From the IMG/VR virus record IMGVR_UViG_3300030098_006570, positions 62,001 through 126,000 of that record: a stretch of DNA of 64,000 nucleotides; one strand, 5' to 3'. The first letter of the stretch is position 1. Every line of letters begins with the position of its first letter. Shown here in pieces: positions 32,573-50,736 of the stretch. The notes beneath the pieces were generated by a model. That model was given only the letters and a program-made list of their open reading frames with translations. It searched no databases and was not told the DNA's origin. The position numbers and the translations under genes are program-made. This DNA is from a virus.

Positions 32573-33268
32573 TTAAGTAGTGGCATGAAATTCTTTATAG
32601 AGGGCCTCCCCTACTCTAAATTGCCACTCATAGTCAATATCAAAGCTTTCCAATTCATTTATAACTACTAGTTCCAAATTGGGAGGTGCGGCAGTATCCA
32701 TCCAATAGCCCTCCCCTATAATATCTATACGACTTCCATAGAGACAATGAGCGGCCTCATAGACCGCATCAACATCCTTAGTGTCCATCCAGCTCCGTCC
32801 TTTCCAGTCAGTGAGGTGGTTTTTGTTTTGATCCCAGTAATAGGTTTTCTTTTCGGTCACGGCAAACGCTCCCTCATTCTCTGAGTGAATAAAAGACTCA
32901 ATAAAGGTATCGATGGTAGAAACCTCCAGAAGAGGATTGCAGCCGCTCACCATAATCACATATTTATATTGAGGGGGGAGTTTATCGTGCCATTCGAAAA
33001 TGGTGGCTAAGCGCTTTTCTTCTAAGGCTGACTCTTGAGACCTCTCGAAGATATTAATTTGATGACGGCGACCGATCTCTTTGATCGGTTCATCATAGGC
33101 GGAAAGAAAAATGTTTTCCCGCGGCAGAGACGTCAGTTTTTGTAGTTTACTAAAGAGAACATCGAGCAAGGTAGAACCAGCAAATGGGCGCACCATCTTG
33201 TTGGGCACACGCTTGGAAGCCAAGCGCGATTGTACCATGAGAGCGATCTCGCTTCTATCTTTCGGCAT
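32573..33268 (-). CDS. CMP-nonulosonate cytidylyltransferase 1 (NeuA/PseF-type)
   Basis: A 231-residue protein (ATG at 33268, TGATG overlap with the GNAT gene; a GTG three bases earlier is possible). It has the nucleotidyltransferase pattern of acylneuraminate cytidylyltransferases: MVQSRLASKRVPNKMVRPFAG (substituting for the usual ARxxSKRxPxKN), then LFSKLQ and VSGCNPLLEVSTIDTF, then IDYEWQFRVGEALY, equivalent to the IDTxxDF end motif. This enzyme joins CTP to a nine-carbon keto-sugar acid. A second, related copy is encoded at 35264-35980. It is the final activating step of the locus. Confidence 0.82.
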   Translation of the reverse strand: MPKDRSEIALMVQSRLASKRVPNKMVRPFAGSTLLDVLFSKLQKLTSLPRENIFLSAYDEPIKEIGRRHQINIFERSQESALEEKRLATIFEWHDKLPPQYKYVIMVSGCNPLLEVSTIDTFIESFIHSENEGAFAVTEKKTYYWDQNKNHLTDWKGRSWMDTKDVDAVYEAAHCLYGSRIDIIGEGYWMDTAAPPNLELVVINELESFDIDYEWQFRVGEALYKEFHATT

Positions 33269-33669
33269 CACTGCTCTTCTCCCTCAAAAATGTAATATTG
33301 TTTGACGAACCCGCACCCCTCAAATAGACGTACGCTCGCCAGATTAGATATGTGAACAATTGCTTTGAGATCTTTCTTTTTTAGTTCTTGAGAAACATAA
33401 ATGAGCATCTGTTTTCCCAAGCCTTTGCCCCGGGAGCCCTCGACCACAGCTATAGAGATATAGCCAGATGCATTGAACCCCACATATCCCACGGGGGCCG
33501 AGTCTTCCAAACAAATATAATACTTATCACCATGCGCTTTCATATAGTTCCGATGTTCTTCGGCAGTAATCTCATGCGAATGCATAGAGTTTTCTCGTGA
33601 CACCTTATCGTTCTTAAGTTTGCGGATGAATGCCCAGTATGAAGGGTTATTTTTAACTATGTGTGCCAC
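33268..33669 (-). CDS. GNAT acetyltransferase (PseH-like position)
   Basis: About 134 residues with the GNAT acetyl-CoA site: ISIAVVEGSRGKGLGKQML, the R/QxxGxG/A motif, then VHISNLASVRLFEGCGFV, the typical motif B (N-x-x-x-x-x-LYE-x-x-GF). A GTG at 33669 with AAGG spacing is preferred; an in-frame TTG at 33681 is possible. In pseudaminic acid routes PseH acetylates the 4-amino sugar made by the aminotransferase, and this gene sits among those enzymes, so that role is inferred. It overlaps the formyltransferase end by 17 bases. Confidence 0.78.
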   Translation of the reverse strand: MAHIVKNNPSYWAFIRKLKNDKVSRENSMHSHEITAEEHRNYMKAHGDKYYICLEDSAPVGYVGFNASGYISIAVVEGSRGKGLGKQMLIYVSQELKKKDLKAIVHISNLASVRLFEGCGFVKQYYIFEGEEQ

Positions 33670-34234
33670 GCAATCCTTCAATCTGATGGATGGGGGTGGC
33701 CCACCCTTTTTCTAGAAGAGGCCAGTATTTCTCCAAATCGCGTTTATAGTGAAAGGAGCCCACCGATTCATCTTGTTTGGTAGGCGCGATGGCTTGGCTG
33801 CGGATGGCGGGCCAGCTCTCTCTAAATAAGTTTTCCATCTCCACTCGCAGACGCCCATATGTTTTCTCAAGCGTGTCTTCCTCGGGCCCGAAGGTGACCT
33901 CTTTCTGGGCAAGGAGGTCGCCCGTATCGATTCCTTCATCGATGAAGTGAATGGAAACGCCCCGGGGGGTGTTGTCCAAGAAAGACCAAAAATTAGGATG
34001 ATAACCGCGATTCCACGGCAAATAGGAAATATGTAAATTAATAACGCGATCTGGGTAGTGTTCCAAAAGAGGCGCCTTCAAGATATACTTATAACCATAC
34101 GACACAATGAAATCCGGCGCCCAGGCAATTACATCGGGGGTAGCCACGCGCTGAGACGTAGCCCACACGGTGTCCTCTTCTTGGATAAAATCTATCAGCG
34201 GACTGTCCTCATACCCCAAAAATAAAATTTTCAC
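33653..34234 (-). CDS. Formyltransferase-like sugar-modifying enzyme
   Basis: A 193-residue protein with the formyltransferase core. The NLHISYLPWNRGYHPNFW motif contains the Asn and His of the catalytic N-x-H-x-S-x-x-P-x-x-RG pattern, and the aspartate lies in FIDEGIDTGDLL. It is shorter than Met-tRNA formyltransferase and lacks its C-terminal tRNA-binding part, so it resembles sugar N-formyltransferases. Within this locus it could place an N-formyl group on the amino sugar using formyl-tetrahydrofolate. It starts at GTG after GGAGGAAA. Confidence 0.78.
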   Translation of the reverse strand: MKILFLGYEDSPLIDFIQEEDTVWATSQRVATPDVIAWAPDFIVSYGYKYILKAPLLEHYPDRVINLHISYLPWNRGYHPNFWSFLDNTPRGVSIHFIDEGIDTGDLLAQKEVTFGPEEDTLEKTYGRLRVEMENLFRESWPAIRSQAIAPTKQDESVGSFHYKRDLEKYWPLLEKGWATPIHQIEGLRGTHS

Positions 34235-34244
34235 TCTTTCCTCC

Positions 34245-35267
34245 CTAATCTTGTGGTGGAGTGTCCAATAGAGAATACGCTAAAATGCTATCTTCCGCGA
34301 CCTCTTCGGTTACCACTCTTCCCAGTACCTCATAAAAATCCGACGCCGGTATCGATTCCTCTAGAAAAGGGCGTTTAGTCGTGATGTTTTCGGTTGTGAG
34401 AACCTCTCCGGGAACCAAAGGCCGGGTGGCTATGATGGATCTCATTGCAGTTTTCATATTCTCTTCACTCGGCGTCAGGTTGCTGGTGCGTCGGTTCAAG
34501 CAGGTCTCTGCCGTGCGAATGTTGCTTACCATCTGCTGGAGTTCTAGAGGCTCGATCGCAAAGATATGATCGGGGCCTGGTAGCCGTTGAGAGAGGGTAT
34601 AATGCTTTTCTACACAAGAAGCACCCAGAGCCACGGCGAGAGGGGGAGCTAAGATCCCCGGTGTGTGGTCGGAAAGGCCGACGCGCACTTCCGGATAGGC
34701 TGCTCGAAGGGTAGGGATTTGTAAGAGATTAATATCTTCGAAGGGGGTAGGATAAGCATTGTTGCAATGTAAAATGGTTACATCGGGAGTGGAGTTTTCC
34801 ATAGTTACCCACTCCAGGAGATTAGCAACCGTCTCTACATTACTCCCAATGCCAGCTGATATCACCAAAGGGAGGCCAGTGCTAGCGACCATGCGTACAA
34901 AACGGGGATCGCTAGACTCAAATCCGGCAATTTTGATCCTTTTTACCCCCAGTGCAACGAGTTCATCAACCGCCCTCTCGTCAAAAGGGCTGGACATAAA
35001 TTCAATTCCCACTTCATCGCAGTACGCCTTGAGGTCCTTTTGCCACTCTCGCGGGAGTTCAATGTCTTTGATAAGCTGCGTTATATTCTTATAGTTATAG
35101 AAATCAGGCGTATGCTTAGAATAGAGGGTTTCCGCTGTATAAGTCTGAAATTTTACCGCATCGGCACCCGCCTCGACAGCTGCATCGATGAGAGCCAGGG
35201 CTTGGCCAAAATTTCGATTATGATTAGCGCCGGCTTCGGCGATAACAAAGGTACGAGTAGAAGTCAT
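34245..35267 (-). CDS. Nonulosonic acid synthase 1 (NeuB/PseI-type)
   Basis: A 340-residue protein with both expected parts: an N-terminal TIM barrel (IAEAGANHNRNFGQALAL, GADAVKFQTY) and a C-terminal SAF antifreeze-like domain (residues 270-335, ATRPLVPGEVLTTENITTKR). Metal and PEP site motifs are intact: LHCNNAYPTP, GLSDHTPG and VEKHYTL followed by GPDH. The enzyme condenses PEP with a six-carbon amino sugar to a nine-carbon acid. ATGA overlap with the second cytidylyltransferase. Confidence 0.92.
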   Translation of the reverse strand: MTSTRTFVIAEAGANHNRNFGQALALIDAAVEAGADAVKFQTYTAETLYSKHTPDFYNYKNITQLIKDIELPREWQKDLKAYCDEVGIEFMSSPFDERAVDELVALGVKRIKIAGFESSDPRFVRMVASTGLPLVISAGIGSNVETVANLLEWVTMENSTPDVTILHCNNAYPTPFEDINLLQIPTLRAAYPEVRVGLSDHTPGILAPPLAVALGASCVEKHYTLSQRLPGPDHIFAIEPLELQQMVSNIRTAETCLNRRTSNLTPSEENMKTAMRSIIATRPLVPGEVLTTENITTKRPFLEESIPASDFYEVLGRVVTEEVAEDSILAYSLLDTPPQD

Positions 35268-35980
35268 AATTTATTTTCCTTTTCAAACAGTTGGGAGTAA
35301 AGCGCTTCTGCCGCATCAAACTCCCATTGATAATCAATATCAATATATTGTGCTGAATCATAATGGAAGAGGGGCGGATCATTAGGTTTCTCAAAAGACC
35401 CCATATAAACGTGCCGTCCCACATCTTCCATGGTTCCGGCGCGCAGAGGGCCGCCGGAGTAAATAGGCTCGATAAATTTAGTGTTGAAAGTGCGGCGCGC
35501 TTCCTCGGATCCATAAAACGCTTGAAATTGGGATCCATCCTTACGGTAAAAGAAGCGGCGATGCTCTACCACTGAAAATAGGCCGCGCGAATCTGATTTT
35601 ACAAAAGCTTCCACAAAGTTGTTCAAAGTTTCCACCTGTACTAGAGGATTGCATACATTCATAAGAATATAATGATCGTAATCGAGCTTATTCCACCAAT
35701 CGAAAACCTCAGGCAATGTAAAAGGCTTGGTATCATCATTGCGAATTGAGGTTTCGTCACGTAGATAAACATTAATATTGTGATTGTCAGCAATTTCTAA
35801 AAGTTCGGGATCGCGAGCAGAAAGATATAAATTCTCCGTGGGAAAAATAGACTCTTTTATCTTCTCAATTGCTACCTCCACCAGAGTACTTCCGGCGAAT
35901 GGGTTGATGACTTTCCCTGGCAAACGCGAAGATCCAACGCGTGCTTGCAAAATAAAACAAATTCGATCTAAATTTTTCAC
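35264..35980 (-). CDS. CMP-nonulosonate cytidylyltransferase 2 (NeuA/PseF-type)
   Basis: A 238-residue protein with clearer family motifs than its paralogue at 32573-33268: ILQARVGSSRLPGKVINPFAG, NVCNPLVQVETLNNF and IDIDYQWEFDAAEALY. GTG start in a GTGA overlap with the second synthase. The two cytidylyltransferases share the frame of conserved blocks but differ in length and surface, suggesting two different sugar substrates or one for each synthase. Confidence 0.85.
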   Translation of the reverse strand: MKNLDRICFILQARVGSSRLPGKVINPFAGSTLVEVAIEKIKESIFPTENLYLSARDPELLEIADNHNINVYLRDETSIRNDDTKPFTLPEVFDWWNKLDYDHYILMNVCNPLVQVETLNNFVEAFVKSDSRGLFSVVEHRRFFYRKDGSQFQAFYGSEEARRTFNTKFIEPIYSGGPLRAGTMEDVGRHVYMGSFEKPNDPPLFHYDSAQYIDIDYQWEFDAAEALYSQLFEKENKL

Positions 35981-37035
35981 CCTACCTCATCCTCCGCCGT
36001 GATAATGTCCTCGTACCCTACCGCCTCGTTGCGGCGAATGTCTCTCGCAGCCACAGTTCCCAATAGATTGGGATAATGACTAGGATCGAGTCCCGCATCT
36101 TCGGGCCGTTTACATGTAAGCATCTCCGACGTAATAACATCCCCTGCTCTAATATCTGCCGAAGCACAAATATGCTTGAAATATTCTTTTCTATGCGCAA
36201 GATCATCGGCGCTGGGGATGATATCCATCGCGCCGAGGGACTTTTCAATATTTCGAATGTGGCCTACCCACTCGGCGAACTCGGCTGGTTCCTTCGAAAT
36301 AATGTGATGATGGCCCGGAAGTGCATGACTCAGGGTTAGGCGCTTTTCAATAACTCTGGCGCCTAAACCGATGGCTACATAATCATTGATGTCGTAAGAA
36401 TTCGGTGAGGAAAAGCCTACCCGAACACCGAGTTGCTCCTTCATGTAGGGGATAGAGAGCATATTCATTTCTTCATGATGGGGGGTGTGATAATCATGTA
36501 ATAAAATAACATCATTGTCTTTGAGGATGTCGAGGACGATTTTCAGCTCATCTTCGTAGACAGTGCCCACATCAATTATGATAGGCTCCTTAAGCTTGCT
36601 CATTTTTTCCCATAAGGGATAATCGCTCAGATCCCAAGCTCCCACCTTGTAGAGCAAGAAGTTCAACTCTTCGGCATAGTCTAGGCCTGCTTGACCTTCG
36701 ATGCTGGCAAAGAGAAGGATATTTTCTTTATCCGCATAAGCTTTTATCTCTTTCCACTCGTCCAGGGTAAACCTCAAGGAGTCAAACATCTCAAACATAT
36801 TTTCCGTAACCTTACCGCGCACGGTGTCATAAGTATATTCCACTGTGGGGTCGCTCATCAAATCATCTGGGAAATGGAGAACAAACTTAACCGAGTCTGC
36901 ACCAGCTTTTGCGGCGGCCGATATCAATTGTTTGGTTATATCCATATCATAATTGCAAGTAACTCCAATCTCAGCGATGATAAAAATATTTTTATCTCCT
37001 ATAATTCGGTTACCAACTGTAAGCTCTGTGTTCAT
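35977..37035 (-). CDS. Nonulosonic acid synthase 2, divergent NeuB-like
   Basis: A 352-residue protein. The ATG at 37035 has AAGGGAG and forms an ATGA overlap with the deacetylase gene, so it is chosen over an upstream in-frame start at 37095. It has the NeuB barrel (IAEIGVTCNYDMDITKQLI, GADSVKFVLHFPDD) and a SAF domain (residues 280-345). Several site residues differ from the usual pattern: NHxG is TCNY, SDHT is SSPN, EKH is EKR and GPDH is GHHH. It may act on another substrate, or be inactive. It is encoded beside cytidylyltransferase 2. Confidence 0.8.
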   Translation of the reverse strand: MNTELTVGNRIIGDKNIFIIAEIGVTCNYDMDITKQLISAAAKAGADSVKFVLHFPDDLMSDPTVEYTYDTVRGKVTENMFEMFDSLRFTLDEWKEIKAYADKENILLFASIEGQAGLDYAEELNFLLYKVGAWDLSDYPLWEKMSKLKEPIIIDVGTVYEDELKIVLDILKDNDVILLHDYHTPHHEEMNMLSIPYMKEQLGVRVGFSSPNSYDINDYVAIGLGARVIEKRLTLSHALPGHHHIISKEPAEFAEWVGHIRNIEKSLGAMDIIPSADDLAHRKEYFKHICASADIRAGDVITSEMLTCKRPEDAGLDPSHYPNLLGTVAARDIRRNEAVGYEDIITAEDEVG

Positions 37036-37688
37036 TTTATCTCCCTTATTAGTTGAAATTTTTCCGCATATTCCAGGCCGACCTGGGAACCCCAAAATTT
37101 CATCGTATTCTCTACATGTTGATAGCTGCGGGCATGCGGATGGCCCCTCATTTCTTCCTCATAGCATTCCTTTAGACATGTTATTTTTTTATCTTTATAT
37201 TTGGTGACATCAAAATAAACTGTTCCCCTAAAAGAATTGAGAGGATTATAGTCAGTGGACGAGGGAACATAATACGAATAGATTTTAGTATGATCTCCTC
37301 CTTGGGGGCGAAAGACCGTAATCGTGGCCCTATAGACTACCGAATGGTCTATATTCAAACAATCCGGATGATGAGTAAAAATAACATCTGGTTTAAAATT
37401 AATATTGTTTTCGATAAATCGACACACCTCTAAGAGAGGTACCGAATCCATTTGGTTATCCGGGAAAGATCCATAATTATGGCTATGGATACCCAACGTA
37501 TCGGCTACGGATTTAAGCCTATAATTCCGATTCTGAGCATCAGGGGTCATCCAGGCTCGAGCGCTGATACCATCCGTAAAGGTCAACAGGTGAACGCGAT
37601 GTCCCTCTGCACTCAGCCGCGCTATGGTGGCGCCACACCCAAAAGTTTCATCATCAGGGTGGGCCGCTAAAACTAAAATATTCTTCAT
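37032..37688 (-). CDS. PIG-L/LmbE-type sugar deacetylase
   Basis: A 218-residue protein with the family zinc motif AHPDDETFGCG near the N-terminus (residues 9-19) and the later THHPDCLNIDH (residues about 106-116), the second metal site. PIG-L family enzymes remove N-acetyl groups from GlcNAc-containing substrates. In this locus it could de-acetylate an intermediate or finished sugar before re-acylation by the GNAT or formyltransferase. No PseG-type UDP-sugar hydrolase was found, and this is not expected to replace it. Confidence 0.88.
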   Translation of the reverse strand: MKNILVLAAHPDDETFGCGATIARLSAEGHRVHLLTFTDGISARAWMTPDAQNRNYRLKSVADTLGIHSHNYGSFPDNQMDSVPLLEVCRFIENNINFKPDVIFTHHPDCLNIDHSVVYRATITVFRPQGGDHTKIYSYYVPSSTDYNPLNSFRGTVYFDVTKYKDKKITCLKECYEEEMRGHPHARSYQHVENTMKFWGSQVGLEYAEKFQLIREIK

Positions 37689-37694
37689 CTTCTC

Positions 37695-38390
37695 TCAAAC
37701 CTCAATCAGTCTTTTAACATTTTCAACACCTATATTGAATAGTATATCATAAAATCCCATCCAAGGCACGAAGTTTTCCATGTTGTGTTGTGAATGGGGG
37801 GGCGTTTCGGCGTCATGATAAATGAGCCCTATTTCAGTGCCTCCAAATACATCTTCCACCCCATAATCTTTAGCCGGGTGGCCACAAATATAATGAGTAG
37901 CCCCCACTTTTTTACAGAGATTCACAATTTTATGGGGCCCCTTTGCATCCACGCTTAGGCTGCTGGACTTAAGAAGCTCAACCTCAAAACCTAGTAGATT
38001 ACATGTCAGCTCCAAGAGATGGAGTGTAACCTCCGTGTAATCAAAATTGAACTTTTCAACCACTGTGTCCAATTTATCATAAAACATATCTAATATTTTA
38101 CCGTCATAGTGGGGATGGTTAGAATAAGCTCGACGGAGTTGATCGCGGTGATGTCCTATCCACTCCAAATTAGCTATTTCGGACTCAGAAATCAGAGCCC
38201 GCGACGAGGAGGAAATCGGAATGGTGAGCCAGGTGGGACGGCCGTCGAGTAAGATCTTGTTGCGATTTTCAAATGCACGTGATTGACGCTGTACATCGTC
38301 GAGAACTATAAAGAGGTCGGCCTGATAGAGACGCTGAATATAACTCAATATGGGAATGTATCGCGGTTGGGTTATGACAACAGATTTCAT
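37695..38390 (-). CDS. WbqC-like sugar-locus protein
   Basis: A 231-residue protein with the WbqC signature: VITQPRYIPILSYIQRLYQAD, then DDVQRQSRAFENRNKIL, then YICGHPAKDY (G-x-S-x-x-x-Y equivalent). WbqC proteins occur in O-antigen and amino-sugar loci, and their reaction is not well fixed. ATGA overlap with the methyltransferase and six bases before the deacetylase gene show it belongs to this operon. Confidence 0.8.
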   Translation of the reverse strand: MKSVVITQPRYIPILSYIQRLYQADLFIVLDDVQRQSRAFENRNKILLDGRPTWLTIPISSSSRALISESEIANLEWIGHHRDQLRRAYSNHPHYDGKILDMFYDKLDTVVEKFNFDYTEVTLHLLELTCNLLGFEVELLKSSSLSVDAKGPHKIVNLCKKVGATHYICGHPAKDYGVEDVFGGTEIGLIYHDAETPPHSQHNMENFVPWMGFYDILFNIGVENVKRLIEV

Positions 38391-39256
38391 TCATTCCCAG
38401 CCAATTCGGATAGAAGAGCGGAGATTCGCCCATCATGCTCATTAACTCGACCCATCAGCTTTCTGGCTTCAGTTGGCGCATGTGTAAAGGCCAAGCGAAG
38501 AATATCCATCCAATTCACATTATTCTTGCTACGGATCTCCTGTACCTCATCGAGGATTTCGAGGTCGCTCCTTTTTTGGGTGGCACCAGTTTCCTTGGTG
38601 ACCAGAAAGCTCACCTCCACCGAACCGCAGCAGTAGCCATGATTTTCACCTACTGTGACGCGCTCGCAGGTCGTAAATCCGACGTCCTTGGCGATCTTCG
38701 CAATGTCCCCATATTTCATCCAGAGTACATTCCACTCTCTGGCGCGCTCATTCCCTTCGTTCTCTCGCTTTTCGATATCATAGCCATGATAAACAAGGGC
38801 CTTACCTCCCTCTTCTAAGAGATTGTAAATGTTTTCCATACTGGTCTGTAACCCTGCATCATTGAGATAGGGAAAGACAGCGCCACAAATAATTTTATTG
38901 AACTTTTTACCCTCTAGGTTGGAAAGATGAGGCAACGAATCTTGAATGGCTTCCATCTTGTGACTGTTCCCCGTCTTTCGGGCCCACTTATTAAAATTGT
39001 TTACATAATTAGCATAGGGTTCGACCAGGGTTAGAGAGGTGAAGCGCTCGCTATCTAATTGTTTGATAAAATGACCCGTACCTCCTCCAAGGTCCAAGAT
39101 GGTATCACCATCTTCAAAAGACAAAAACTTGTCAATGTCATCTCCAATACTGGCAAAAACCGAATCAGGATAGGCCCCGCGGCCATGGGCAATTTTATAA
39201 TCGGAGTAGCTGCTTCTCTCACTCCAATATTTCTTCCATGTTTTTTCTCTTTCCAT
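38387..39256 (-). CDS. SAM-dependent methyltransferase
   Basis: A 289-residue protein with a class I methyltransferase fold. Motif I is ILDLGGGTGHFIKQL (about residues 53-67), followed by the acidic VEPYAN and FNKIICGAVFPYLND (motif IV region). The C-terminal 70 residues are helical. The substrate is not visible; lying between a WbqC-like gene and an unknown sugar-locus gene, O- or N-methylation of a sugar is a reasonable guess. Confidence 0.82.
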   Translation of the reverse strand: MEREKTWKKYWSERSSYSDYKIAHGRGAYPDSVFASIGDDIDKFLSFEDGDTILDLGGGTGHFIKQLDSERFTSLTLVEPYANYVNNFNKWARKTGNSHKMEAIQDSLPHLSNLEGKKFNKIICGAVFPYLNDAGLQTSMENIYNLLEEGGKALVYHGYDIEKRENEGNERAREWNVLWMKYGDIAKIAKDVGFTTCERVTVGENHGYCCGSVEVSFLVTKETGATQKRSDLEILDEVQEIRSKNNVNWMDILRLAFTHAPTEARKLMGRVNEHDGRISALLSELAGNE

Positions 39257-39280
39257 AAGAATCTTATCTCCTTTTCTTTC

Positions 39281-40225
39281 TTATAAATTTAGCGCTTCGT
39301 CGAAGCTAATATAAGGAACCACTTGATTTATCAAAGTGTATGTGTCATCGAAAACACTGTAAATTTCCATCTGATGCAGGTGTTGCAGATCTACCCATTT
39401 TTTAACGAACCCGAGCGACACATCACGCTGATCTTCTTGCTCTGCAGCGTGGGCGGCCGGACGCGAGGCTCCAAAATTAGAGGCCTCTAGAGTGTTGCGT
39501 AAAACCACATCTTCATCGATTTCCCAAAAACGGGCGCCCACAAAATCAAACCCCATTATCATCACCCGTCGCGCTTTCAAAAACTGCGCTAAGGGAAAAA
39601 TAGCGCTTGAGACCTTATTTTCTAGTCCCCATTTGCGCGCCATCGTATAGGGAGGAAGAAAAACCTGCTCTCCATCAAAGGCGGCCGTGCCGAAAACAAT
39701 GGGGCCCTCCGTTTCAAAGCGATTTTCAAAATCCCCTACGCAATAGGTATCATCAGGAGTCGTCGTATTGAGCCCCATGGTCTGTTGATACTTGGTGGTA
39801 GTAGCTTTAAACACTGTCACTTTGATCCCGATATGTCTAACTTGATCCAAAAGCTCTAAATACTCGTCCCAACTACAGGTCCGATGCTCATCATCTACTC
39901 GATCTGGAGCGGTAGGGGTGGTTCCCCCATACAAGCGATAATATGCATAATTGTCGGCTAAAAAGTGAGGAACCAAAATTTCTATATTCATCAATCTTTC
40001 ATACTGGGGGGCCGTCGAGGGCACCGTCAGTAAAAATCTAAGACCTTCGGCTGCAGAGTTAGGGTCCATCCACGCCCAGTAATCGGGGACCACATTATAA
40101 AATTTATATTCCAGTGGAAAGGTCCGCTGGAACGAAAGAATCTTGTCACCGCTGCGTCGCAGTTTTTCCAGCTCTTCTTTGTGGTAGGCAATAGACTCAC
40201 CAGTTCCCAGGACCCATAATTTCAT
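39281..40225 (-). CDS. Possible GT42/DUF115-like glycosyltransferase
   Basis: A 314-residue protein. The order of motifs resembles GT42 sialyltransferases and DUF115 proteins: an N-terminal LGTGESI loop (compare GNGPSL), a strand-turn ARRVMIMGFDFVG in the last third (compare KEIYLSGIDFY), and then VDLQHLHQMEIYSVFDDTY near the end. If right, it could transfer the CMP-activated nine-carbon sugar made by the neighbours. No firm catalytic histidine was identified, so the assignment is tentative. It has an 86-base upstream gap before the aminotransferase stop. Confidence 0.5.
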   Translation of the reverse strand: MKLWVLGTGESIAYHKEELEKLRRSGDKILSFQRTFPLEYKFYNVVPDYWAWMDPNSAAEGLRFLLTVPSTAPQYERLMNIEILVPHFLADNYAYYRLYGGTTPTAPDRVDDEHRTCSWDEYLELLDQVRHIGIKVTVFKATTTKYQQTMGLNTTTPDDTYCVGDFENRFETEGPIVFGTAAFDGEQVFLPPYTMARKWGLENKVSSAIFPLAQFLKARRVMIMGFDFVGARFWEIDEDVVLRNTLEASNFGASRPAAHAAEQEDQRDVSLGFVKKWVDLQHLHQMEIYSVFDDTYTLINQVVPYISFDEALNL

Positions 40226-40311
40226 GGTTTGTGATCTCTTTGTATGTTCAAGTACATCTGCTTTATTCTACTCTATTCTGCGCGGGATTTAAATACGATT
40301 ATAAAGAATTT

Positions 40312-41310
40312 TCACGGTTCCGGCGAATATAGAGGGAGATTGAGGATAGTGGAATGAACCTCTTCTAAAAGGGGTAAACAGTGTTTCTCTACTGAAGACC
40401 AATAAGCGGTAGTGTGAAGCATGGGATAGTGGCGCGCTACTCCGATTCTCTCTGTCAAGGCCTCTGCATTATCCACCAAAGTGGTTCCCAAATAATAAGA
40501 AGAATGGGAATCTTGGGGGAGTAATGTAAATTCTTCGCCCCACCTTTCATAGTTAGTTTTGCGCTCGGCTAATTGTGCTGCGTAACGAGGCAACTGCGTA
40601 AGCGCTACTGTTGCGCTTAAGTTATTCATATAAAATTTAAACCCCTCCTGGGTGATGTCATAAGAGGACCCAGAGGTCACGCGCCCAAAATTGCGATAAG
40701 AGCGGAAATAATTTTCCGCCGCCGAATCGTTGGTGCCAATAAGGCCGCCGTCGGGACTACATATGGGCTTATAAGGATGAAAAGAGAAAAATACAAAATC
40801 AGATTTGATCGTAGGAGTCACGCAATGGGCGCTATCTACCACCACTACCTCATCTCCATAAGGTTCAAAATCTTCAATATTACTCACACCCCCATAAAGG
40901 ACCGGCATGAGAACAACCGGCAGGGAGGGTTTCTGCAAAGAAACTGCAAGGCGCCTCTCTTTATAAGAAGTTGTCGAAAATTGGAGATCTTTATTCACAT
41001 CCACAAATATGACCCGATGGCCATTTTGCCGCGCGGCCCAGGCGGGAGATGTAAACCCGAGGGATGTGGTATAAACATCACACGGGCCTTTAAGTGCGAA
41101 AAGATAAGCGAAAATCATATAGGCTGCAGCGCTAGCGGAATTTGTGGCAATATTGTAAGATTTATGTGAAAAAGATGTAAACTGATTTTCAAATTCTGTA
41201 ACGTTGGGACCGAAACCGAGGGCGCCCTTTTGGAGAACCTCTATAATAGAGGGCAGATCTTCAGCAAGTATAGAAGAATCAAAGGCCTTCATTTTAGAAG
41301 ATATCTTCAT
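40312..41310 (-). CDS. DegT/DnrJ-type sugar aminotransferase (PseC-like)
   Basis: About 332 residues. The ATG at 41310 has GGGGGAGC at proper distance; an ATG six bases earlier is too close to it. Family motifs: GALGFGPNVTEFENQF at the N-terminus, DSAHCVTPT (PLP ring aspartate and histidine region) and FFSFHPYKPICSPDGG, where the lysine of HPYK is the PLP Schiff-base position. The enzyme would transaminate the 4-keto sugar made by the dehydratase at 41388-42362, as PseC does after PseB. It is slightly shorter than typical (about 370). Confidence 0.88.
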   Translation of the reverse strand: MKISSKMKAFDSSILAEDLPSIIEVLQKGALGFGPNVTEFENQFTSFSHKSYNIATNSASAAAYMIFAYLFALKGPCDVYTTSLGFTSPAWAARQNGHRVIFVDVNKDLQFSTTSYKERRLAVSLQKPSLPVVLMPVLYGGVSNIEDFEPYGDEVVVVDSAHCVTPTIKSDFVFFSFHPYKPICSPDGGLIGTNDSAAENYFRSYRNFGRVTSGSSYDITQEGFKFYMNNLSATVALTQLPRYAAQLAERKTNYERWGEEFTLLPQDSHSSYYLGTTLVDNAEALTERIGVARHYPMLHTTAYWSSVEKHCLPLLEEVHSTILNLPLYSPEP

Positions 41311-41387
41311 AAACATGCTCCCCCGAGTTATTGGTCATTATATATTTACGAGCACCGGCGCCCTGGGACCAATATTCCTCTTGTGGA

Positions 41388-42362
41388 TTAGTTGGCATCG
41401 CCCAATCCCCGCTCAATCAGTCGCACTAATTCATCCACATTATCACTCATATGCAATGCGGAGTTGAACTCCGGGCCATCATAGGACGCCCAGGCTGTCC
41501 GAGCGGTGCGATTAGTATATTGAGGGCGTACGCCCAACAGATTGAGGCCGGGGACCGCGTAAGTAAACGGTAATTCGGTGGCGGCGAGCATATCTTCGTG
41601 AAGTTTCTCTCCAGGTCGCAGCCCGATCAATTCATAGTCGACAGGGGCGCCGTGCAACTTCTCCACGGCTTTAATAATTGTAGTCATATCATAAGAGCAG
41701 ATCTGGGGAATAAAAACTTCGCCACCCTCGGCATTTTCGAGGGCGCCCAGGACCGTATCCACTGCATCTTCGAGGGTAAACAAAAAGCGGGACATCTCAA
41801 GCGACGTCACTTTGATATTCTTCCCCTCCCCAAGAAGACCGAGCCATAGAGGGATAAAAGATCCGCGGGACGCAATCACATTTCCATATCTCACTGATGC
41901 AAAGATGGTTCCTTCGGATTGATAGTCATAGTTGGTGTAGAGTCGTTCTGCGATAAACTTTGAGGACCCATAGACGTTGACCGGTTGGCAGGCCTTATCG
42001 GTGGAAATAAGAATACACTTTTTCACCATGTTCAAAAGAGCGGCCCGGGCCACATTTTCGGATCCAGCAATATTAGTTTTTACACACTCATCCGGGTAGA
42101 ATTCCATATCATCAATACGTTTGAGAGCGGCGGTGTGGATAACATAGTCGGGCTTGAAGCGCTTCATTGTAACATTGAGTTTATCGAAATCTCGTACGTC
42201 CCCAATGACGCGTATAACCTCAGGTAATGGCCCAAAGGAAAGGGCTTGTTTGCCTTCGTCACGGCTAAACACCACTATCTTATTCAAAGGATCTTTGAGT
42301 AGGCGTTTGATGAGGGCTTTTCCAAGCGATCCCGTGCCGCCCGTAATCAAGTATGTTGTCAC
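41388..42362 (-). CDS. pseB: UDP-GlcNAc 4,6-dehydratase (PseB-like)
   Basis: A 324-residue SDR protein. It has the NAD(P) loop TGGTGSLGKAL (residues 7-17), the STDKACQPVNVYGSSKFIAE region with the STDK and Y-x-x-x-K catalytic elements, RYGNVIASRGS and LIGLRPGEKLHEDML, all typical of PseB 5-inverting dehydratases. It would turn UDP-GlcNAc into the 4-keto-6-deoxy sugar that starts pseudaminic acid synthesis. GTG start in a GTGA overlap with the glycosyltransferase fusion gene; 71-base gap after it before the aminotransferase. Confidence 0.9.
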   Translation of the reverse strand: MTTYLITGGTGSLGKALIKRLLKDPLNKIVVFSRDEGKQALSFGPLPEVIRVIGDVRDFDKLNVTMKRFKPDYVIHTAALKRIDDMEFYPDECVKTNIAGSENVARAALLNMVKKCILISTDKACQPVNVYGSSKFIAERLYTNYDYQSEGTIFASVRYGNVIASRGSFIPLWLGLLGEGKNIKVTSLEMSRFLFTLEDAVDTVLGALENAEGGEVFIPQICSYDMTTIIKAVEKLHGAPVDYELIGLRPGEKLHEDMLAATELPFTYAVPGLNLLGVRPQYTNRTARTAWASYDGPEFNSALHMSDNVDELVRLIERGLGDAN

Positions 42363-44398
42363 AGTTCCACCCGTTCTATCTTATCGTCAGCCGGATTCAG
42401 CCGGGAGATAATCTTTAGTTCACACTCATTTTGGCGAAGCCAATCGTGCCAGTCACCCACTACACTCAAAGTAATTCCCTCCTCATGAGGAAGCGTTTTG
42501 GCCGCCGTCTCGTTGGCGGCGACTTCATTGGAGTGGATAAATTCTTCCTTCTTGTAAGTACTGCCTTCTTTATCATAAAAGTGTTGGTGAGCAGCGCCTT
42601 CGGGGAGCAATTTATTGTCCCATCCAATAGTGATGACCTCGCTCACCCCCAGATGCTGAAGGAGATAGAAGACAGCCTCGTACATGATGCCGGGCCCATA
42701 AGGACGGAGCATTCCTTGTTTGTCCAGGGTCCACTCATCAAAATTCTTCTTGGCCGCTACGGAGTTATCAAAATTTCTCTCCTGAATAAAGAACTTCAAA
42801 TCACACTCTCCCAACTTGAAAGGAGTAGTGGACGCTTCCAAAACGACTGGGCGGCGCGCAGTGTAGTCATACTTCTTATAGTTAGCGCAGTTATAAACAT
42901 GGAAATCCGTGAACGATGCAAACAGATCATAAGCCTGTTTGATGGCAATCGTGAGATTATTTTCCAGCAGCCCCTTTACGGCATCCTCATCGTGTTCTGT
43001 TAACGTGGGTCCGCAAGAGAGCACATAACATTTCTCTCCCTTGAAGAGGTCCTTCAGGAGGGCCAGCTTTTCGGACTGCAGACCGAACTGGGCGACGGCC
43101 GTTGTTGCAGCTGCAGCACGATCTTTGGGGTTTTCTATCTGCAGTAGATCTTCGCGTGCTTTCCCAATACTGTCTTTGGTGCCCTCCAGGGGTACCCCTA
43201 AGCTCTCAACAAACTGTGCATACATATTTTCCGGAGTGAAGTTCTCAAGGATATGCTTTTGAAGAGCGAGAGCCTCTTGCTTATAGTGCTGCTGCTTGGT
43301 AATTGCCTCCTTGAGGGCGCGCTTGTACGAGTTTTCCTTGGCATAAGCCCACATAGAATCCTTTTGGAGGACCCCATCCCAGACGGCCGCCTTCTGAATC
43401 GGCTTCACATTATAATCTACCTTGATGATACGAGGAAAGTTTTTACCCTTCTTGTTGGGACGACAAATGTAATCCATCTGCCCGCTCCACGCCATCGTGA
43501 TAAGCGGAAGACCATTATATGCTGCCTCAAACATAGGGAGGCCATACCCTTCCCCGTGAGCGATATTAATCAAGGCGCGCATGGACGGGTGCTGATAGAG
43601 CCACGTAAGGTTCTCCATACTAATCTCTCCATGGACCATGTAAATCTTGCATTTGCGGTCCGGGATGGCCTGCAGGATTCGCTCAATTGTCCACCCTGTG
43701 TGGTAGCGATCTCGAATACTGTCGCATGCGATGCTTGTCTTGACCACAAGTCCCGCTGTCTCATCATCTTTGAAAGTTTCCGCAAACCACTTAATGGTGT
43801 TTTCCATATTCTTCCGGGGGCCCCACTGCGACACTACCAAGAAATTATTAGTAGTGGTAAACTCGATGTTTAGGGGGTCAGCTTCTCTTACCCGCGTGGG
43901 GTAATTCACAACTTCTACAGGGAGGTCAGGGCGCAGGCCCCAGTTCGGCACCTCTTCACCGGTTTCCTGAGCAGTGACAGCGTACTTTGTATTCTGGAAT
44001 ACATCTCGTGAATGTGCAGAAATGGTAACCAAGCGCTGTACCGTCGTGTTGCATTTTTCAATCCACTGGGGGGCGACCTTGGTTGTTTCAATTCCAGCCG
44101 TATACCCAACGTTGTAGGGAGCAATGGGCTCAAACTCATTTGGAATAGTCACCTGTAGGGACATGTCAAAGGTCCCGCCGTTTTGAGTATAAACTTGAGT
44201 CTTTAGCATCAAGCTGTCCAACCACCGGCGCTCTTCGCTGTTTTCCATCATCATCCCGGTTTTCCCCCATGGGATATTGATAGCATAAATATCAAATACG
44301 TCTTCTCGGGTGCGCAATGCTCGCAGCGCGAACCGGGCCTGTTCGCCATAGCCGGATCGGCTAAGAGCCGGCGCCTTCACTAATATTTTCTTTTTCAT
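42359..44398 (-). CDS. Glycosyltransferase fused to a GNGPSL-type domain
   Basis: A 679-residue two-part protein. Residues 1-405 are a GT4-like glycosyltransferase: the EX7E pair is E283 and E291 in HGEGYGLPMFEAAYNGLPLI, with the acceptor-side loop SRSGYGEQAR at 14-23. Residues about 452-640 form a second module: EKCYVLSCGPTLTEHD, then GPGIMYEAVFYLLQHLGVSEVITIGWD, close to the pattern of GT42/DUF115 proteins. The linker (405-450) is helical and Ala-rich. This could transfer two sugars in sequence. GTGA overlap with the dehydratase. Confidence 0.75.
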   Translation of the reverse strand: MKKKILVKAPALSRSGYGEQARFALRALRTREDVFDIYAINIPWGKTGMMMENSEERRWLDSLMLKTQVYTQNGGTFDMSLQVTIPNEFEPIAPYNVGYTAGIETTKVAPQWIEKCNTTVQRLVTISAHSRDVFQNTKYAVTAQETGEEVPNWGLRPDLPVEVVNYPTRVREADPLNIEFTTTNNFLVVSQWGPRKNMENTIKWFAETFKDDETAGLVVKTSIACDSIRDRYHTGWTIERILQAIPDRKCKIYMVHGEISMENLTWLYQHPSMRALINIAHGEGYGLPMFEAAYNGLPLITMAWSGQMDYICRPNKKGKNFPRIIKVDYNVKPIQKAAVWDGVLQKDSMWAYAKENSYKRALKEAITKQQHYKQEALALQKHILENFTPENMYAQFVESLGVPLEGTKDSIGKAREDLLQIENPKDRAAAATTAVAQFGLQSEKLALLKDLFKGEKCYVLSCGPTLTEHDEDAVKGLLENNLTIAIKQAYDLFASFTDFHVYNCANYKKYDYTARRPVVLEASTTPFKLGECDLKFFIQERNFDNSVAAKKNFDEWTLDKQGMLRPYGPGIMYEAVFYLLQHLGVSEVITIGWDNKLLPEGAAHQHFYDKEGSTYKKEEFIHSNEVAANETAAKTLPHEEGITLSVVGDWHDWLRQNECELKIISRLNPADDKIERVEL

Positions 44399-45654
44399 CA
44401 GTACACCTTCACTTCATAGCTATTATAACCGGTCCGGTTCTCCCATGATCCCATGGTTTCATGGACATGCGTGAACAAATTGTCCCATCGCTCCACAAAC
44501 GTTTCGAACCCAAACTGCTTTTCAGCCCAAGCACGACCGCGGAGGCCCCACTCGCGCCGCTGTTCTTCCGGCATCTTATACATATCCGTCAGAGCTTGCA
44601 CTACGTCCTCACCAGCCAGTCGGTCCTCGTATATAAAGGGAACTTCCTGACTGCCAATGATAGATTTGGACGATGGTTCTAATCCGATTCCGTACCAATT
44701 ATCCTCTCCATCCTTTATCTGATCCTGAAGCCCTCCTGTCAGGGTTGCTATGATTGGGGTGCCACAGGAGAGAGACTCCAATGTAGATAACCCGAATCCT
44801 TCAGCGTCTGACACATTGATTGTGGCATCAGCAAGATTATACATCATTGCTAAATCAACCGCATTCACTTTTTCTTTAGACAACAAAACCTGGCCGTTTG
44901 TCAGGTCAAGCTCTTTCATAATCGCTTCCAAATCCTGCCCATGAACGTCCTTTGGGTCTGTGTGCATTATAAGGGTGGCCTTGTCATGTAGATCGTTTTG
45001 GTCTAGAAAATCCTTAAACCAATAGATAAGAGATCCTGACTGTTTACGTCGTGCATTTCGATTATTCCATGCTACTACAAACTTGCCGGCTAATCCCTTC
45101 TCTTCCTTTATTGCCGCCACAGCCGCGGGGTCCAGCGGCTTGAAAATTTCCCCGTCCACCGCGTGGGGGATATAAGAACTCTCCACACTAGGCGAGACAG
45201 TTTGTACAATATCATATGTAAGCTGTGAAATGCAAGCAATATGATCGTTAGAATCGTACCAGACGCGATTGAAGCTAGGATAGGGATAATTATCCCACAC
45301 ATGATAGTAAACCATGGGAACATGCGTTCTGATTTCGTTCTCAATATCCCACAGCCATGTATAAAATCTGGGATCGGTCATAAACCAGAGAATATCCGGC
45401 TTTTGCTGGTGAATCATCGCGCGAACCATGTCCGCGTTTCCGTACCCATCTACAGGCCAAATGATCCAGTCTTGTCCCCACTCAGGCGTATGCTGAGGGT
45501 CGTGACGGGGGTGCTTGATGGCACCGCCGAAGCTGACAAATTGATATTTTCCTGTCTTGAGCATCCCTTCGATAATGTATTTTGTTTGTGTGCCCACACC
45601 GGAAGGGGAAAGCGGGTGGTCACTGATCGTAAAGATCTTAATCTTGTCTGACAT
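44398..45654 (-). CDS. GT4-type glycosyltransferase
   Basis: A 418-residue protein starting MSDKIKIFTISDHPLSPSG; the ATG at 45654 has AGGAG nine bases upstream, so it is chosen over a start at 45696 that would overlap the nuclease gene. The GT-B fold shows SPSGVGTQTKYIIEG at the N-terminus and the EX7E motif in DAEGFGLSTLESLSCGTPII (about residues 298-317). The donor is not visible. One-base overlap with the fusion glycosyltransferase next in the operon. Confidence 0.85.
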   Translation of the reverse strand: MSDKIKIFTISDHPLSPSGVGTQTKYIIEGMLKTGKYQFVSFGGAIKHPRHDPQHTPEWGQDWIIWPVDGYGNADMVRAMIHQQKPDILWFMTDPRFYTWLWDIENEIRTHVPMVYYHVWDNYPYPSFNRVWYDSNDHIACISQLTYDIVQTVSPSVESSYIPHAVDGEIFKPLDPAAVAAIKEEKGLAGKFVVAWNNRNARRKQSGSLIYWFKDFLDQNDLHDKATLIMHTDPKDVHGQDLEAIMKELDLTNGQVLLSKEKVNAVDLAMMYNLADATINVSDAEGFGLSTLESLSCGTPIIATLTGGLQDQIKDGEDNWYGIGLEPSSKSIIGSQEVPFIYEDRLAGEDVVQALTDMYKMPEEQRREWGLRGRAWAEKQFGFETFVERWDNLFTHVHETMGSWENRTGYNSYEVKVY

Positions 45655-45662
45655 TCTGTCTC

Positions 45663-46445
45663 CTAACGACAATGTTCGGTATTGAGGAGCTTGCATGGAT
45701 ACGGCTTATGGCAATGCAGCCGGTTTTTGATAGCAAACTTTTTGGTTATATTGTATATTGCTTGATATAGAAGTTTAAGCGCGTTTTCCGTTTTTTTGGG
45801 TCCGCTCGTCACTCTAAAAATCTCCACACGATCTTTTTTAGCCGTGCGCTTGAGCAGTGCAAAGTGGGTCTCAACGCTTTTAGGATCTATACCGTGCTTT
45901 TGGCAAAAAAAGTGCTTGTATAGTGTAAGCTGGTAAGTGACCATCTTTTCAGCCTTCTTGCGGGAATCCCATCCCCAAGAGCAGGTTTTCCAGTCAAAAA
46001 GGTGGTAAGTGTCCCCTACCTTAACGACTGCATCCACAAAACCTTTAAAATTTATATTGAAATTCTCAATAGGAACGTAAAGCATTTCCTCCGAAGAAAA
46101 AACCTCGTAATCGCCAAAATACTCTTTCAGTGCAGATTCAACCTGGGCTAGTATCTGAGGGCCCGCTTGACGCATCTGCTTTACATTGTTGGCGTTTACA
46201 TCAATGTTCTTTTCAAACAATTTTTGTAGCTGCTTATCAAAGCCAATCTGGAATATCTCTGTTTCATCAATATCTTCTTTGAGAAGCTTCTTTTCACAGA
46301 CATCATGGATGGCAGTCCCAAAAGCGGTGTATTCGTTGCCTTCAAATGGAGCAACTCTTTCCACCCAAGCCTTCTTATGGTAATGGGGACAATGCGCCCA
46401 ATCTTTTAGTTCTGAATAAGATATGTGTTCACGCGGTTGCATCAT
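45663..46445 (-). CDS. PD-(D/E)XK nuclease with Cas4-like cysteines
   Basis: A 260-residue protein of the RecB/Cas4-like superfamily. Catalytic residues in order: H47 (GTAIHDV), D138 (KGFVDAVV), D151 and K153 (LFDWKTC), then the YQLTLYKHF motif. Cysteines C19, C245, C251 and C259 are placed like the one N-terminal and three C-terminal iron-sulfur ligands of Cas4/AddB, although the spacing C-x5-C-x7-C is not the usual one. It probably cuts or processes DNA ends. It overlaps the metalloprotease end by 17 bases. Confidence 0.78.
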   Translation of the reverse strand: MMQPREHISYSELKDWAHCPHYHKKAWVERVAPFEGNEYTAFGTAIHDVCEKKLLKEDIDETEIFQIGFDKQLQKLFEKNIDVNANNVKQMRQAGPQILAQVESALKEYFGDYEVFSSEEMLYVPIENFNINFKGFVDAVVKVGDTYHLFDWKTCSWGWDSRKKAEKMVTYQLTLYKHFFCQKHGIDPKSVETHFALLKRTAKKDRVEIFRVTSGPKKTENALKLLYQAIYNITKKFAIKNRLHCHKPYPCKLLNTEHCR

Positions 46446-48668: not shown

Positions 48669-49184
48669 TTAATAGTTTCCCCCTTTGGGCGTCCCATCAC
48701 ACTGGATCACCTCTACACGCGAAGGCTGTAAGTCTCCCTCCGTCGCCACATCACCTACCATGCCGGCGTCTGTCACCAGAGTGGAAGAGCTTTGAACTTT
48801 TCCCCCACCCATATTCCATAGAAGTTGTACGCCTAATTCCTCGCACACATCCATTTCCGGAGTGTTATCGTTTTTGCGATCACCGCCGTTAGCAAAATAA
48901 TCCGGCTTGATCCGCCGGAGCGCTTCGCATACAGTGCCGTCCCTATCATCAACGTTCGTTGTTTCACCAGTTGCTGTAAAGCCCTCTAGAATTTCGCACC
49001 GCTCCTCGAAAGGCATAAAGATATATCCTTTCTTTCGCATCAGCCAGTCATCAGAATTAACGATCACTACCACATGGCCGTGTTGCGCTGCTTCTTGTAT
49101 CATACGGAGATGACCGATATGAACAGGATCGAAGCCTCCCGATACACAAACAACATCATAAGGAGTTTGGGGTAGATTAGTCAT
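48669..49184 (-). CDS. HxGH nucleotidyltransferase (HldE C-domain/GCT-like)
   Basis: About 171 residues; the ATG at 49184 has GAGGAG nine bases upstream and overlaps the preceding gene by eight bases, so a longer frame from 49391 is not used. SGGFDPVHIGHLRMIQEA contains the HxGH nucleotidyl-transfer motif; VNSDDWLMRKKG, ERCEIL and YFANGGDRKND follow as in the adenylyltransferase half of HldE and in glycerol-phosphate cytidylyltransferases. It would activate a sugar or polyol phosphate with ATP or CTP; the substrate is unknown. Confidence 0.82.
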   Translation of the reverse strand: MTNLPQTPYDVVCVSGGFDPVHIGHLRMIQEAAQHGHVVVIVNSDDWLMRKKGYIFMPFEERCEILEGFTATGETTNVDDRDGTVCEALRRIKPDYFANGGDRKNDNTPEMDVCEELGVQLLWNMGGGKVQSSSTLVTDAGMVGDVATEGDLQPSRVEVIQCDGTPKGGNY

Positions 49185-49422
49185 TAGAGGGCTCCTCGGC
49201 GGCCTCTGGCCCCACAAAATAACGATTGATAGCGCCAATAGCCTCGTCAGCTTCCGCCAAGCGGGCGACAGCCCCAGCAATTTCCCCCACGATGTCAGGA
49301 TGCTCACCCACCCCCACAGGACGAGTGAGATACAACTCAATGGTGGCCAAAGCCTCCTGACGCTTGGCGTCAAACCTCGCGAGGGTGGCACTCATAAACC
49401 GGTTAGTAAGTATATTGGACAT
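49177..49422 (-). CDS. Small phage protein, unknown function
   Basis: An 81-residue, mostly helical protein starting MSNILTNRFMSATLARF with an acidic end (GPEAAEEPSND). It follows the tRNA-Asn gene by 18 bases and overlaps the HxGH nucleotidyltransferase by eight. The start has GAAAGGAAAATATT. No family recognised. Confidence 0.6.
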   Translation of the reverse strand: MSNILTNRFMSATLARFDAKRQEALATIELYLTRPVGVGEHPDIVGEIAGAVARLAEADEAIGAINRYFVGPEAAEEPSND

Positions 49423-49516: not shown

Positions 49517-49783
49517 CTATTCTTCTTTTTGCAAGTATACAACATTTCCTTCTTCTCTAAAAGTTTTTATTTCCTCTACAATCTCTTCTATTTCTTCCAC
49601 TTCCCACGGCATGGGGATTAAGCCGTGATGTGACATTCCTACTTCTAAATAATTCAAGCGTCTCCAGACATTAGAATTAATTTTTTCCTGATACTTCTGA
49701 ATCTTAGTTAGTACCCACAGCGTGATCACATTGAAAAAGAATCCTAATATGGCTATAAATAATACTAATTCAACTGTCATCAT
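49517..49783 (-). CDS. Small membrane protein, paralogue of the one at 31471
   Basis: An 88-residue protein with an N-terminal membrane segment (VELVLFIAILGFFFNVITLW) followed by a helical acidic part (EVEEIEEIVEEIKTF). The SHHGLIPMPWEVEEI motif resembles SYHGEPMIEELMHR in the protein at 31471-31806. Its stop codon is directly followed by the tRNA-Asn 5' end. Overlaps the DUF2452-like gene by 14 bases. Function unknown. Confidence 0.65.
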   Translation of the reverse strand: MMTVELVLFIAILGFFFNVITLWVLTKIQKYQEKINSNVWRRLNYLEVGMSHHGLIPMPWEVEEIEEIVEEIKTFREEGNVVYLQKEE

Positions 49784-50231
49784 TTTCTGGCTGTTCTACA
49801 ACCTCCCACGTTTGATCGGGAAGTAATTCGACCTCAGCCAGAAAAGTACCGGGATCCACCCGGTGCCAGTATTGGGGCGCTATCAACGAAAGAAAATGAC
49901 TTTGGTCTTTTCTTTGATACAAATAATAATGCTCTCCAATCACGGGCTCTATGTTAAAATCCGCCTCATAAATAACCTTTGAGACGTTTACTCGTTCTTG
50001 TACTTCTTTTGCTTGTTCCATAATTATTTCTGCCTGTTTCTTAAGTTTTTCTATTTCTTTTTCCGCATATTTCTCGGCCGCGGAAATGGCCCGGCCCTTC
50101 AGGGTACTCATATCATTAGGCACGATAGCAGGAGCGCCCACATTCGTCCCATAGGGTTTTATATTAGCATCAAATTCTTCCGTCTCATAGTTATACACTA
50201 CATTATCTGCAAATTTTTTATCTTTTGCCAT
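49770..50231 (-). CDS. DUF2452-like protein
   Basis: About 153 residues starting MAKDKKFADNVVYNYE; the ATG at 50231 has AGAAGG and follows the QueF-like stop, so the upstream start at 50270 is not used. A long helix (ISAAEKYAEKEIEKLKKQ) leads to the conserved part FNIEPVIGEHYYLYQRKDQS and SLIAPQYWHR, the pattern I associate with the DUF2452 family. It is acidic at the C-terminus. The family has no known function. Confidence 0.72.
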   Translation of the reverse strand: MAKDKKFADNVVYNYETEEFDANIKPYGTNVGAPAIVPNDMSTLKGRAISAAEKYAEKEIEKLKKQAEIIMEQAKEVQERVNVSKVIYEADFNIEPVIGEHYYLYQRKDQSHFLSLIAPQYWHRVDPGTFLAEVELLPDQTWEVVEQPENDDS

Positions 50232-50242
50232 TCGATTGCCTT

Positions 50243-50650
50243 CTACCAACGATGATCCTTTCCGGCCCAATCTTTAAATTTTTCTTCCCCGCCGCGAATC
50301 GCCCAATCCGAATCAATAGTAAGTTTGGAGGAAAGGCCTCCCCGGGGGTTGAAATCCATTTCCAAACGCAAACGATTCGGCTCGTAGACTTCTTTCAAAT
50401 CATCATAAACCACATTGATGAGCCGCTCATACGAAAGCAGCCGATTGCGAAAATCCTGAAAATACTTTTTTAGGGATTTCAACTCAATTATACTATCTTT
50501 GGGATAAAAGACAATCCAAACCGTTGCAAAATCCGGCTGGTCCTTGACCCCAATAAAAGTAACCTCCGGGTTCTTGATATTTATTTCATAACCATCCCCT
50601 GAAGGGTTTGGCAAAGTCTTGAGCAGCGACTTATTACTCCATGTTCTCAT
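50243..50650 (-). CDS. QueF-like tunnelling-fold protein without catalytic Cys
   Basis: A 135-residue protein. NPEVTFIGVKDQPDFATVWI aligns with the QueF block [20 protein letters not shown], and ELKSLKKYFQDFRN plus FNPRGGLS match ESKSLKLYLFSFRN and FTPRGGIS. QueF reduces preQ0 to preQ1 through an active-site Cys; here that position is Gly. The QPDF aspartate and the substrate-binding Glu region (SYERLIN) are kept. It may bind a deazaguanine or pterin, or carry out another tunnelling-fold reaction. Adjacent to tRNA-Thr, so a base-modification role is tempting but unproven. Confidence 0.8.
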   Translation of the reverse strand: MRTWSNKSLLKTLPNPSGDGYEINIKNPEVTFIGVKDQPDFATVWIVFYPKDSIIELKSLKKYFQDFRNRLLSYERLINVVYDDLKEVYEPNRLRLEMDFNPRGGLSSKLTIDSDWAIRGGEEKFKDWAGKDHRW

Positions 50651-50660
50651 ATATTCTCCT

Positions 50661-50736
50661 TGGTGCCGGCGCCACGAATCGAACGCGGGACCTGCGGGTT
50701 ACAAAACCGCTGCTCTACCAACTGAGCTACACCGGC
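50661..50736 (-). tRNA. trnT: tRNA-Thr (anticodon TGT)
   Basis: A full cloverleaf: acceptor GCCGGTG/CGCCGGC, D-stem GCTC/GAGC, anticodon arm GCGGT TTTGTAA CCCGC (anticodon TGT, Thr; the inner stem pair is T-C), T-stem CCGCG/CGTGG with loop TTCGATT, discriminator A and encoded CCA. The stop codon of the class II aldolase gene lies inside its 5' end, at TA of the GTGTAGCTC segment. Confidence 0.92.

Follow-up and report, generated by a model that had tools for sequence, protein, structure and literature searches.

Can a phage make a nonulosonic acid of its own, and what would it do with the sugar? In H. pylori and C. jejuni, pseudaminic acid is made by the PseB-PseC-PseH-PseG-PseI-PseF pathway, and an initial annotation of the DNA studied here had proposed a nearly complete pathway of this type in a phage. 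The stretch analyzed, referred to below as the window, comprises 64,000 nucleotides and represents positions 62001-126000 of a phage record of 148 kb. Judged from its sequence, the source record is a T4-like phage: a T4-type gp23 major capsid gene was found in the same record (E 2e-60), and the window also encodes a baseplate wedge and an endolysin. Host assignment by gp23 and PhoH returned distant relatives only.

The initial annotation had placed dehydratase, aminotransferase, GNAT, synthase, CMP-transferase and several accessory sugar genes together at 32573-42362. Every one of these genes was recovered there as an open reading frame on the minus strand, and profile searches returned family matches for the set. 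Two more glycosyltransferases, GT1 and GT2, prolong the run upstream from 42362 to 45696, giving an uninterrupted 14-gene run at 32573-45696 on the minus strand, with many 4-base overlaps. Listed in order of transcription, the genes of this island are:

44398-45696, minus strand: GT1, GT4-type glycosyltransferase, the conserved left anchor of the island (PF00534, 4e-12; syntenic)
42359-44398, minus strand: GT2, GT4-like N-terminus with an MptE/Maf-like C-terminal domain (PF01973 at 42617-43078, below cut-off)
41388-42362, minus strand: PseB-type UDP-GlcNAc 4,6-dehydratase (PF02719, Polysacc_synt_2, 1.8e-78; TIGR03589, 260 bits)
40312-41316, minus strand: DegT/PseC-like sugar aminotransferase (PF01041, 5.5e-36; SFHPYK)
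39281-40225, minus strand: GTx, candidate CMP-nonulosonate transferase with a predicted sialyltransferase fold (model, Cst-II Z 10.8; weak PF01973)
38387-39256, minus strand: SAM methyltransferase (PF13649, 3.9e-9)
37695-38390, minus strand: WbqC-like protein (PF08889, 1.1e-45)
37032-37688, minus strand: PIG-L family deacetylase (PF02585, 2e-23; HPDDE motif)
35977-37035, minus strand: NeuB2, divergent NeuB-like protein with a remodelled active site (PF03102, 6.7e-41; likely start 37035, open reading frame extending to 37095)
35264-35980, minus strand: NeuA2, CMP-sugar synthetase-like (PF02348, CTP_transf_3, 1.9e-13)
34245-35267, minus strand: NeuB1, nonulosonate synthase with a complete active site (PF03102, 3e-74; residues given below)
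33653-34234, minus strand: sugar N-formyltransferase-like protein (PF00551, Formyl_trans_N, 6.4e-19; N/H/D motif)
33268-33681, minus strand: GNAT acetyltransferase, PseH-like (TIGR03585, 7e-9, below cut-off)
32573-33271, minus strand: NeuA1, CMP-sugar synthetase-like (PF02348, 3.5e-12; weak PseF match)

Near the island, the window also encodes an RfaE-domain-II-like nucleotidyltransferase (48669-49391) and a class II aldolase (50727-51347), which may represent another sugar step. A QueF-like protein at 50243-50650 (PF14489, 2e-21) suggests a 7-deazaguanine step, possibly in DNA or tRNA modification, and is adjoined by a DUF2452 gene (49770-50270). Elsewhere in the window, positions 8961-18770 encode a 3269-aa protein with ConA-like lectin (Laminin_G_3) domains, a candidate adhesin or fibre.

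Family matches were clear at the superfamily level, and no island protein reached an NCBIfam equivalog cut-off, so the names used here are pathway-type assignments and not orthologue calls. PseC was the top NCBIfam model for the aminotransferase (107 bits, cut-off 423), and the SFHPYK sequence of this protein contains the lysine that we take to be the expected PLP-binding residue. For the GNAT protein, the top model was PseH (TIGR03585; 36 bits, cut-off 93). A check on catalytic residues found motifs in the PseB-like protein, the aminotransferase, the formyltransferase (N/H/D), the PIG-L protein (HPDDE...DH), the GNAT protein, NeuB1 and both NeuA proteins, but not in NeuB2.

The dehydratase scored best against TIGR03589 (260 bits, cut-off 408) and matched H. 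pylori FlaA1 (2gn4) at 4e-59, with retention of the D-K (D122-K123) and Y-xxx-K (Y131-xxx-K135) motifs. The tyrosine position of the phage protein and FlaA1 is methionine in CapE and FnlA, and the B. subtilis legionaminate dehydratase SpsM relies on Met146/Lys150 (PMC7439481). A tyrosine as in FlaA1, versus methionine in SpsM, favours the inverting, pseudaminic-type branch.

Both NeuB proteins have a SAF domain, and NeuB1 retains every active-site residue compared with Neisseria NeuB (equivalents of E25, K53, E134, N184, Y186, H215, H236, D247 and R314). The NeuB_NnaB model scored higher on NeuB1 than PseI did (303 versus 266 bits, both below cut-off), and the closest solved relative was B. 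subtilis SpsE (8e-54). On the two NeuA proteins, the PseF model gave 32 and 46 bits against a cut-off of 206. We regard it as rather unlikely that the product is another nonulosonate or ulosonate, such as legionaminic acid, acinetaminic acid or a further isomer. The unreached equivalog cut-offs, the NeuB_NnaB preference of NeuB1 and the place of SpsE in a legionaminate pathway (PMC7439481) are consistent with such a product, but the dehydratase is most like PseB/FlaA1, with tyrosine where SpsM has methionine, and no gene of the island was recognized as a NeuC-type epimerase.

A search of IMG/VR with the PseB alignment as query yielded 80 loci (55-82% identity). A set of 51 long loci was assembled, whose 49 usable PseB proteins fall into 44 clusters at 95% identity. 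Many loci share the order nuclease-GT1-GT2 followed by sugar genes, with a variable middle, and a subset also shares zinc ribbon and sigma-like genes at the far side. NeuB and NeuA occur in 51/51 long loci, the aminotransferase in 42 and a GTx or GT42-like gene in 41, with all of these and PseB together in 33; since loci were chosen by PseB similarity, these counts describe PseB-bearing islands and not all phages. On this comparison, the island is not an isolated case but a conserved, modular locus that keeps its place in the genomes of many uncultured phages.

In a quick tree, 20 of 21 sampled phage NeuB1-type synthases formed one clade apart from bacteria (SH-aLRT 100), the remaining one being a long-branched outlier, and the GC content of the island (46.3%) is close to that of the window (46.6%). 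All of the enzyme families are common in bacteria, and one match in the phage collection, FPLJ01000048, was a bacterial contig, which would fit bacterial contamination or a chimeric assembly as the source of the island genes. However, phage genes flank both sides, gp23 lies in the same record, and we rejected contamination, an extremely improbable explanation, on the basis of synteny across dozens of contigs, a GC content equal to that of the window and the separate phage clade. At the family and motif level, there is good support for the proposal of the initial annotation that a genuine phage encodes a pseudaminic-type nonulosonate pathway. NeuB1 matches in the GenBank phage collection came from only 2 genuine phage records (27-29% identity), and a search of the available literature on phage nonulosonate genes returned nothing specific and no description of such an island, so the island appears little known so far. 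The contig FPLJ01000048.1 (L010) in that collection is part of a Moritella viscosa genome with capsule and sialic acid genes and was apparently misfiled.

The one step that the initial annotation had not recognized, the PseG UDP-sugar hydrolase, was confirmed as absent: it had no match in the phage record even at E<=10, nor in any of 50 additional related records, of which many are fragments. Searches for a hidden PseG with TIGR03590, Glyco_tran_28_C and NUDIX were negative, as was a search of all the phage loci with a second, home-made profile derived from bacterial neighbours; the home-made profile found PseG in only 17 of 80 bacterial NeuB loci and may therefore be narrow. In one bacterial locus (L094), an almost identical complement of genes is accompanied by a PseG-GNAT fusion; by comparison, the phages seem to keep all but the PseG step. 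No gene of unassigned role was universal across the islands. GT1 and GT2 are disfavoured as the missing hydrolase because their homologues occur in cultured phages that have no annotated NeuB gene. Without a PseG-like enzyme the encoded route would be incomplete unless the host contributes, and a host hydrolase is the simplest answer.

The gene between the aminotransferase and the methyltransferase, GTx, had no Pfam or NCBIfam family match at E<=0.01, and its profile had no match among PDB sequences, sialyltransferases included. Conserved GxG and GFDF motifs are present in GTx. An AlphaFold2 model was built from 14 island homologues (pLDDT 81.9, pTM 0.85) and compared with solved structures using VIA-align. 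Cst-II came out on top (Z 10.8 over 208 residues, rmsd 4.2), and the other top matches of the predicted fold were Cst-I, the P. multocida enzyme, human ST8SiaIII (Z 8.6), ST6GalNAc2, MptE-type proteins (8.6) and SteA; folds unrelated to sialyltransferase/MptE scored Z 6.3 and lower. Foldseek, run on an earlier and weaker model, placed MptE-like HPPK first, with no sialyltransferase among the best 50.

Whole-record matches to PF01973 (MptE/Maf) were confined to GTx (E 7e-4) and the C-terminus of GT2, both below cut-off, and a GT2 homologue in a sister island (L005:6360-8423) matched at 1.2e-5. The pfam01973 domain of Maf flagellin nonulosonate transferases resembles Cst-II (PMC11339370). Sister islands contain a separate GT42-like family that matches Cst-II/Cst-I by sequence profile (~1e-7). 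Comparison by hhalign among the GTx, GT42-like and GT2 C-terminal families gave low probabilities (24-29%), so their kinship rests on fold and position. GTx is best read as a CMP-nonulosonate transferase, and its predicted fold, together with the sister family that matches Cst-II by sequence, suggests that the transfer step is probably phage-encoded as well as synthesis. In one sister island, the GTx domain is fused to an extra C-terminal domain (L004:15003-16625) that is a separate protein in other islands.

We consider it fairly probable that the island encodes both the synthesis of a CMP-activated, pseudaminic-type nonulosonic acid and its transfer onto a cytoplasmic acceptor. In the proposed pathway, the PseB-type enzyme would convert UDP-GlcNAc to the UDP-4-keto-6-deoxy-L-sugar, the aminotransferase would then install the 4-amino group, and the GNAT protein, the formyltransferase or both would acylate the amino sugar, with the PIG-L protein available for further N-acyl editing. 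UDP would be removed by an enzyme not recognized in the phage, for which a hydrolase of the host is the likeliest candidate; NeuB1 would then condense the free sugar with phosphoenolpyruvate, and NeuA1 would couple the nonulosonate to CMP. NeuB2 and NeuA2 would form a second, divergent branch. Transfer would fall to GTx and perhaps also to the MptE/Maf-like C-terminus of GT2, with a soluble protein as the most likely acceptor and a virion protein as the best guess, as Maf does for flagellin.

The main rival to a virion-protein acceptor is host-surface remodelling, in which lipid-linked assembly in the host would be diverted so that the sugar ends up on its LPS or capsule, blocking superinfection or altering a receptor. 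WbqC, PseB and GT4 proteins are commonly encoded in O-antigen and capsule loci, and a host flippase and polymerase could serve such a process. However, searches of the phage found no lipid-carrier transferase (Glycos_transf_4, WecA-type), flippase (Polysacc_synt) or membrane-spanning island protein, which favours a cytoplasmic acceptor, and the candidate transferases belong to the soluble Maf/GT42 type. We judge remodelling to be unlikely; the combination of a Maf/GT42-like transferase with no membrane or lipid-carrier genes points to a soluble cytoplasmic acceptor, most simply a virion protein.

The second synthase is less conventional. NeuB2 combines a NeuB barrel with a SAF domain (PF03102, 6.7e-41; PF08666, 1e-7) and retains the SAF arginine, but relative to Neisseria NeuB it lacks the canonical catalytic residues (H215 to P, H236 to R, D247 to H, Y186 to H, E134 to D, N184 to D). 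In the Neisseria NeuB structure, H215 and H236 are the metal ligands. Two other phage contigs (L003 and L045), one at only 47% identity, carry substitutions at these catalytic positions too, and the residues that replace the originals, a GHHHI stretch among them, are conserved down to that identity; a wider search found no relatives besides these contigs. The conserved loss of catalytic residues, the metal-binding histidines included, argues against an ordinary synthase, and NeuB2 is read as an altered, conserved NeuB relative.

It is possible, though somewhat improbable, that NeuB2 has no synthase chemistry of its own and instead assists NeuB1 as an inactive partner, for instance by contributing its SAF domain across a dimer. 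The loss of both metal-ligand histidines and of several substrate residues, with the SAF domain and its arginine retained, would fit such a partner, but a NeuA gene adjoins NeuB2 in 3/3 known cases, which together with the conserved replacement residues suggests a selected function of its own.

Sister islands hold further NeuB types. A third type, without a SAF domain and with its own conserved residue pattern, is common there and absent from the window (L004:7105-7965, L006:12358-13191 and many others); in 37 loci it is adjoined by a family of ~380 aa (e.g., L004:5978-7108) that weakly resembles CDP-glycerol glycerophosphotransferases. In a fourth type, which forms its own clade, Asp replaces the first catalytic Glu (L034:12442-13503, L056:12486-13559 and others).

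The near-complete pathway of the initial annotation thus stood in its families, motifs and missing PseG, and fell short in overlooking GTx as a candidate transferase, the altered NeuB2 and the conservation of the locus across phages. The parts are of known kinds, and what is new is the combination of a conserved phage locus, an enzyme with a predicted sialyltransferase fold, no detectable PseG and an altered second synthase. Sialic-acid-like sugars act as masks and recognition tags, and a near-complete kit for synthesis and transfer, if real, would mean that many phages build their own surface or host-surface chemistry. The absence of PseG from 51 records and the odd enzyme NeuB2 are puzzles raised by this locus. 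We give little credence to the boldest version, in which a widespread uncultured T4-like lineage would make nonulosonic acids by a PseG-free route, use a metal-ligand-less NeuB paralogue for a second sugar with new chemistry, and decorate virion proteins through a new single-domain sialyltransferase-fold family.

Compared with known systems, the island resembles the H. pylori and C. jejuni pathway in its dehydratase, aminotransferase, GNAT, synthase and CMP-transferase types and their active-site motifs. It differs in being phage-borne, in having no PseG found and in having all matches below equivalog cut-offs, and it adds a formyltransferase, deacetylase, methyltransferase, WbqC and a second NeuB/NeuA pair. 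The B. subtilis sps legionaminate pathway (SpsM-C-D-G-E-F; PMC7439481) provides the nearest solved NeuB1 relative, SpsE, and a cytidylyltransferase of the same family as the phage NeuA proteins, but SpsM has a catalytic Met in place of the phage Tyr, and SpsG, which B. subtilis requires (PMC7439481), has no counterpart detected in the phage.

For the transfer step, GTx shares its predicted fold with the GT42 sialyltransferases Cst-I/Cst-II and with Maf, GTx and GT2 match pfam01973 weakly, and Maf flagellin transferases likewise move nonulosonates onto soluble protein; unlike the Cst proteins, GTx has no detectable sequence match to them, and unlike Maf, it comes without the other Maf domains. 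Virion glycosylation has a precedent in mycobacteriophages, for which glycans on subunits of the capsid and tail have been reported (Freeman 2023, as cited in PMC12619734), although that passage describes no nonulosonate synthesis pathway. Closest in genomic setting are the cultured T4-like Flavobacterium phage immuto and Microcystis phage Mel-JY01, distant relatives of the island phages whose same slot holds a PD-(D/E)XK nuclease, two glycosyltransferases and sugar genes. Those sugar genes differ from the nonulosonate kit, with no NeuB or NeuA annotated there.
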